In this document: positions 19,695 to 20,328 of the stretch, in pieces | How the letters are laid out: each line of letters starts with the position of its first letter | How positions within the stretch are numbered: the stretch's first letter is position 1 | Origin: Treponema sp. | Lineage (GTDB): Bacteria; Spirochaetota; Spirochaetia; Treponematales; Breznakiellaceae | DNA: 40,408 bases | NCBI GenBank assembly: GCA_031279555.1 | Contig: JAITIK010000198.1 | Span: forward strand, 1 to 40,408 | Direction: 5' to 3' | Program-made: the position numbers and the translations under genes | Notes under the pieces: model-generated | What the model was told of the DNA's origin: nothing | Database searches by the model: none | Seen by the model: the letters and a program-made list of their open reading frames with translations, nothing else

Positions 19695-19877
19695 ATGGCT
19701 CAGGCAGGCGGCGGGAAAAGTAAAAACTCCCGTACGGCGGTTACGACCCAGAAATTTTTCTGTTCCTGTGGCGGAGAAGTTAAGATGAAAGAGTTATTCC
19801 AGGGCGGCAAAAGGAAATGCATCGCCGAATGTTTAAAATGCAAGCGGATAGAGCGACGGCCGACGGATTTCATCTGA
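19695..19877 (+). CDS. Small (60 aa) putative zinc-ribbon protein
   Basis: MAQAGGGKSKNSRTAVTTQKFFCSCGGEVKMKELFQGGKRKCIAECLKCKRIERRPTDFI; strong RBS AAGGAGG 5' of ATG; CxC/CxxC pattern; own promoter. Confidence 0.75.
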   Translation: MAQAGGGKSKNSRTAVTTQKFFCSCGGEVKMKELFQGGKRKCIAECLKCKRIERRPTDFI

Positions 19878-19890
19878 TTTCGGTTGTTTT

Positions 19891-20034
19891 TATTGTTATT
19901 TGAGAGTGGTAAATTCTCCCAAATTCATGTTTTTATGAATTTTTTAAAATTTTCCACTATGTATAGTGCCTTCGATTCGTCATATAACACTATATGTAGC
20001 GTCTTTTAAGAACTTGCCACTCTCAATATTGTTA
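19891..20034. mobile_element. MITE-like non-autonomous element with 18-bp TIRs and 8-bp flanking direct repeats
   Basis: TATTGTTA at 19891-19898 and 20027-20034; TIRs TTGAGAGTGGTAAATTCT (19900-19917) and AGAACTTGCCACTCTCAA (20009-20026), 16/18 identical as inverted repeat; no coding content. Confidence 0.65.
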
Positions 20035-20052
20035 GAACTAAGGAGAAAATTT

Positions 20053-20328
20053 TTGGCAAGAAAATACAGTTCCGCTGAAAAGCGGCACAGACAAAGTGAA
20101 GAACGCCGGTTGAGGAATAAATCCGCGCGGAGTTCGGTGCGTACCAGCATAAAGAAATTCGTAGTGCTGGCTCATAAAAAAGAGGTTTCTGGAGCGGAAG
20201 CGGCTCTGAAAGAAATGATTAAAAAGATCGATACCGCCGCGCAGAAGGGCATTATAAAGAAAAATACGGCGGCGCGTAAAAAATCAAGGATGCAACGGCT
20301 TTTTAATACGCTTAGAGCCGCTCAGTAA
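20053..20328 (+). CDS. rpsT: 30S ribosomal protein S20
   Basis: TTG start after AAGGAG; MARKYSSAEKRHRQSEERRLRNKSARSSVRTSIKKF...KGIIKKNTAARKKSRMQRLFNTL. Confidence 0.9.
   Translation: MARKYSSAEKRHRQSEERRLRNKSARSSVRTSIKKFVVLAHKKEVSGAEAALKEMIKKIDTAAQKGIIKKNTAARKKSRMQRLFNTLRAAQ

Follow-up and report, generated by a model that had tools for sequence, protein, structure and literature searches.

Bacterial non-autonomous transposons (MITEs) such as Correia/NEMIS, ERIC, and RUP are about 100 to 200 bp long, encode no transposase, and have terminal inverted repeats (TIRs) and a target duplication. They are intergenic, have foldback potential, and have ends in common with insertion sequences (IS) (PMC10969869). 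Effects of Correia and ERIC elements through RNase III or RNase E are known (PMC10969869). Among the IS, the ISPepr1 subgroup of IS4 has a full YREK motif, 5'-CT ends with the consensus YT-AA-YTT---A, 7- to 8-bp duplications, and a preference for AT-rich targets; IS701 elements have 4-bp duplications, and the Y of YREK is mostly missing (De Palmenaer 2008, PMC2266710).

We analyzed a 40,408-nucleotide stretch of Treponema sp. DNA (the window), in which a short element lies just upstream of rpsT. The element resembles the bacterial MITEs in its size, lack of a transposase, TIRs, target duplication, intergenic position, foldback potential, and IS-like ends, but its host belongs to the Spirochaetota and no internal promoter was called in it. 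To our knowledge, its sequence is unrelated to that of any bacterial MITE. A literature search found no MITE described in Treponema, and the family that we describe here is previously unlabelled. Comparisons with related genomes show that the element was inserted with duplication of its target, that it is one member of a dispersed family, and that its ends correspond to those of an IS encoding a DDE transposase. We are therefore highly confident that the 127-bp sequence at positions 19900 to 20026 is a non-autonomous transposon, as the initial annotation had proposed.

Anatomy of the element and its empty site

From TIR to TIR the element is 127 bp, with one outer base, T, at 19899. It is the whole unit from 19899 to 20026, to which no strand was assigned, that is missing from the empty site (see below) and whose homologues were found with a sequence pattern and a covariance model. 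The left TIR (TTGAGAGTGGTAAATTCT, 19900 to 19917, plus strand) is an 18-mer whose pattern recurs at IS ends in related Treponema, and the right TIR (AGAACTTGCCACTCTCAA, 20009 to 20026) is on the minus strand, where it reads TTGAGAGTGGCAAGTTCT. These 18-nt arms are 89% complementary and 91 nt apart. They are bracketed by two plus-strand copies of TATTGTTA, at 19891 to 19898 and 20027 to 20034; the extra T separates the left copy from its TIR, and the right end has no such base. When we re-read the sequence, the letters and coordinates of these repeats and inverted ends were as first annotated. The interior was also correctly described as lacking an ORF: it is A+T-rich and gene-free, with no transposase.

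The left neighbor of the insertion is a plus-strand ORF (19695 to 19877) for a 60-aa protein with a zinc-ribbon-like Cys motif. On the other side, the rpsT Shine-Dalgarno sequence AAGGAG (20040 to 20045, plus strand) lies 5 nt 3' of the right repeat and is still present after the insertion. It is followed by rpsT (20053 to 20328, plus strand), encoding ribosomal protein S20 (Pfam PF01649, E = 4.9e-26) from a TTG start, and then by an HU gene and lnt. In nearly all genomes of the host family that we viewed, rpsT is preceded by the 60-aa protein, which has a CxC...CxxC pattern and no Pfam match, and in most of them rpsT has the TTG start. E. coli rpsT also starts with TTG, which is linked to S20 autoregulation.

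Nested hairpins had been proposed for the interior. An A/T-only hairpin, AAATTCAT-gttttt-ATGAATTT (19922 to 19942, plus strand), does appear in the predicted fold; it is followed by a T-rich stretch, and no terminator was called there. However, the CACTA..TAGTG and CATATA..TATATG arms, rather than forming separate hairpins, are predicted to pair mainly with one another in one longer stem. The inner inverted repeat CACTATGTATAGTG/CACTATATGTAGCG (19955 to 20001, plus strand) is a subterminal motif common to the MITE family. Both strands of the element fold far better than 200 dinucleotide shuffles (z = -7.5, 0/200). This is usual for long inverted-repeat DNA, and so it is no evidence of a functional RNA.

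To look for an empty site, as the initial annotation had suggested, we searched a 245-bp stretch around the element against eleven genomes of the same genus. The flanks matched and the element did not. In one relative (G005), query positions 1 to 56 aligned at 949 to 1005 and 184 to 244 at 997 to 1056. The left-flank match runs to base 1005 and the right-flank match begins at 997, so that the two share the repeat alone. This empty site reads ...GGTTGTTTTTTATTGTTATAACTAAGGAG..., compared with ...TATTGTTAT[TTGAGAG...CTCTCAA]TATTGTTAGAACTAAGGAG in the window. A second relative (G001) is likewise empty (TATTGGTATAACTTAAGGAG). Each of the two retains a single copy of the repeat (TATTGTTAT/TATTGGTAT), and the element was missing from all 10 same-genus rpsT leaders inspected (G001 and G003 to G011, with G002 left out). 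This is most simply explained by insertion on the branch that led to the species of the window. Two other same-genus genomes have unrelated extra sequence just 5' of rpsT, of about 190 bp (G009:C27, L035) and about 60 bp (G008:C69, L032), each with its own inverted repeats. This suggests that the gap may accept insertions often.

The same comparison bears on whether the element could instead be an RNA leader or attenuator that regulates rpsT in cis, of the kind present in other ribosomal-protein operons. Its strong sense-strand fold (z = -7.5) and its location 5 nt before the Shine-Dalgarno sequence are what such an RNA would have, but the antisense strand folds equally well, as inverted-repeat DNA does. 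According to the initial annotation, the alternative to a mobile element would be an S20 leader RNA that is single-copy, conserved across diverse treponemes, and supported by covarying stems. What we found was the absence of the element from those 10 leaders, homologues elsewhere in other genomes, and a covariation term of only -0.75 kcal/mol, with both sides changed in 3 of 26 pairs. No Rfam family fit, and nothing came near any gathering score. We rejected an S20 leader RNA on two grounds: close relatives do not have the sequence in front of rpsT, and it is not specific to that gene. We regard this explanation as having almost no chance of being correct.

A dispersed family of related copies

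A TIR-pair pattern (both ends, 90 to 120 bp apart) was searched for in 202 host-family genomes. Matches were confined to the window's own assembly (G000) and two other genomes (G135 and G186), and a reversed control pattern gave none. Four copies aligned with 75% mean column identity, and a covariance model built from them (R1, threshold E < 1e-6) found 18 places in eight genomes from six genera (G000, G035, G047, G115, G135, G186, G187, and G225), 14 of them outside the training set. The element had been expected to occur in multiple copies with variable flanks. This is true of the family in relatives but not of the source genome, a MAG that is 93% complete, in which the intact element has no other copy at a useful E-value. 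A TIR scan of this assembly showed IS ends and one truncated relative, at C29. We checked 16 family copies for ORFs of at least 70 aa, and 14 overlapped none.

Eight of the R1 places are in G186. Six of these copies are nearly identical, 110 bp long, and have ends of the form C-TTG...G, and each is flanked by a private exact duplication of 7 to 8 AT-rich bp (TAATATA, TAATTAT, TTCTTTAA, ATCATAA, TTATTTAA, and TCGTTTA). Two random flanks would share an exact 7-mer with a frequency of about 1.5e-4. A clean duplication was not found at several older family copies. We also considered that the window element could be a shrunken IS remnant and not a MITE that spread as such. It shares only its ends with the IS, and these genomes contain many other truncated IS remnants. 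Against this, full-length homologues of 110 to 122 bp occur at many sites with the same arrangement of inner motifs, and the six nearly identical G186 copies with their private duplications show spread as a small unit. An IS remnant is therefore very improbable, and we continue to treat the element as a MITE. An even smaller sequence, a 58- to 59-bp miniature with both family ends and little interior, is present in another genome of the genus (G010:C183:8022-8080, L246), and is possibly near the minimum size able to move.

The exact 8-bp direct repeats are present as annotated, but the target duplication can also be read as 7 or 9 bp: the candidates are ATTGTTA (7 bp), TATTGTTA (8 bp), and TATTGTTAT (9 bp), the last of which would require that the final base of the right copy had changed to G. 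The family rule is one outer base (C or G) beyond TTG/CAA, and then a 7- to 8-bp duplication. Applied to the window, this gives T at both outer positions and the 7-bp ATTGTTA, with the 8-bp repeat being ATTGTTA plus one coincident T. The length is ambiguous because the window element does not have the outer C/G of the G186 copies, and, given the empty site TATTGTTAT, the 8- and 9-bp readings are about equally parsimonious.

The probable partner insertion sequence

An exact scan of all genomes (264 Gb) with the TIR pattern returned 52 stretches, of which we estimate that about 30 would be expected by chance at the degeneracy of the pattern. Matches outside termite-gut genomes, including a Dulcicalothrix repeat array, were therefore treated as chance. 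About twenty contigs of termite-gut bacteria, most of them from Treponema, contain the 18-mer TTGAGAGTGGYAARTTCT, and many of these break off no more than a few hundred bases from it. Short-read assemblies typically break at multi-copy IS ends. The 18-mer end after AAC, followed by similar A+T-rich motifs, was also seen in Desulfamplus magnetovallimortis, a Treponema MAG, and a deltaproteobacterial MAG (L125, L135, and L139). The IS family may extend beyond spirochaetes.

The suggested search for an IS with matching TIRs led to one with a DDE transposase, in broken or partial copies. Several such copies are in the window's own genome, where the end CTTGTGAGTCGCAAGTTC is at C142 and one-mismatch versions are at C147 and C40, the former running into a broken transposase and the latter adjoining a transposase C terminus. 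Compared with the window TIRs, these ends have 2 differences in 18 positions. In G010, the same end is just past a 335-aa frame that is interrupted upstream by another IS. This transposase matches Pfam DDE_Tnp_1 and reads YAQRFKIEGLFGELK (Y-AQ-R-FKI-E-GLFGEL-K), an exact Y-2-R-3-E-6-K motif. No assembled copy was an intact autonomous IS with a clean duplication and both of its ends; the contigs break inside the IS. The paired ends of three larger copies (L185, L186, and L170) had no clean duplication on inspection. At another locus (L098, 575 to 1900), an IS630-type element is inserted at a TA within an IS copy bearing these ends.

The presumptive partner shares the complete YREK and 5'-CT ends of ISPepr1, and the MITE copies have 7- to 8-bp AT-rich duplications like those of that subgroup. 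Together these point towards ISPepr1, with the CT end and an AT-rich flank seen on the IS itself and the duplications seen on the MITE copies. However, the IS end CTTGTGAGT fits the ISPepr1 end consensus at positions 1 and 2 only, and the window TIRs fit at positions 1, 2, and 5 but not at 4, 7, and 8. Also unlike ISPepr1, and like IS701, the best profile match of the transposase is NCBIfam NF049999 (transpos_IS701_3; E = 5.8e-22), although its 78 bits are below the cut-off of 170; several NCBIfam IS4 models also match below their cut-offs. In contrast to IS701, the transposase has the Y, and the duplications of MITE copies with these ends are 7 to 8 bp and not 4 bp. Therefore, we call the partner only an IS4-superfamily IS.

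From these sequence comparisons, the window MITE was most likely moved in trans by this IS4-superfamily partner. Its Y-2-R-3-E-6-K transposase would have bound both inverted ends in trans and cut the element out of another site, or copied it from there. Joining of the element to staggered nicks in the AT-rich sequence that separates rpsT from the zinc-ribbon-like gene would then have duplicated 7 to 9 bp.

The insertion and rpsT-hup-lnt expression

The initial annotation had also suggested that the element could act as a leader, attenuator, or promoter donor, but nothing in our results supports this. One scan, limited to the sigma-70 consensus for promoters, called no sigma-70-like promoter or intrinsic terminator inside the element. 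In folding predictions, the insertion barely alters the accessibility of the Shine-Dalgarno sequence, which is unpaired at 0.67 with the insert and 0.73 without it. Mononucleotide-shuffled inserts of the same composition gave an average predicted openness of 0.28, and so the self-folding insert would, if anything, be unusually harmless.

A MITE could still have been co-opted later to alter rpsT-hup-lnt expression, by supplying a promoter, a pause site, or a cleavage site for RNase III or RNase E. The element is between two co-oriented genes and directly before the Shine-Dalgarno sequence, and Correia and ERIC elements are a precedent (PMC10969869); the insert may likewise act through RNase III or RNase E. 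The absence of promoter and terminator calls and the small predicted change at the Shine-Dalgarno sequence speak against co-option, and selection for retention is not apparent from an insert in a single genome. We consider co-option unlikely. It is quite unlikely in the specific form of a structured, self-contained 5' leader that alters expression or mRNA processing in one species, for example, through RNase III cutting the paired TIRs as in Correia. Instead, because the ends and inner arms of the MITE are predicted to fold back within it and rpsT keeps an intact ribosome-binding site, the MITE would now be passive, probably tolerated and not regulatory.

This finding leaves the general picture unchanged. 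It defines a small MITE family and its probable partner IS in uncultured termite-gut-type treponemes of several related genera. The window and its relatives make up a clean pair of empty and filled sites beside an essential gene, and the search model made from the family can be used to map recent transposition in these genomes.
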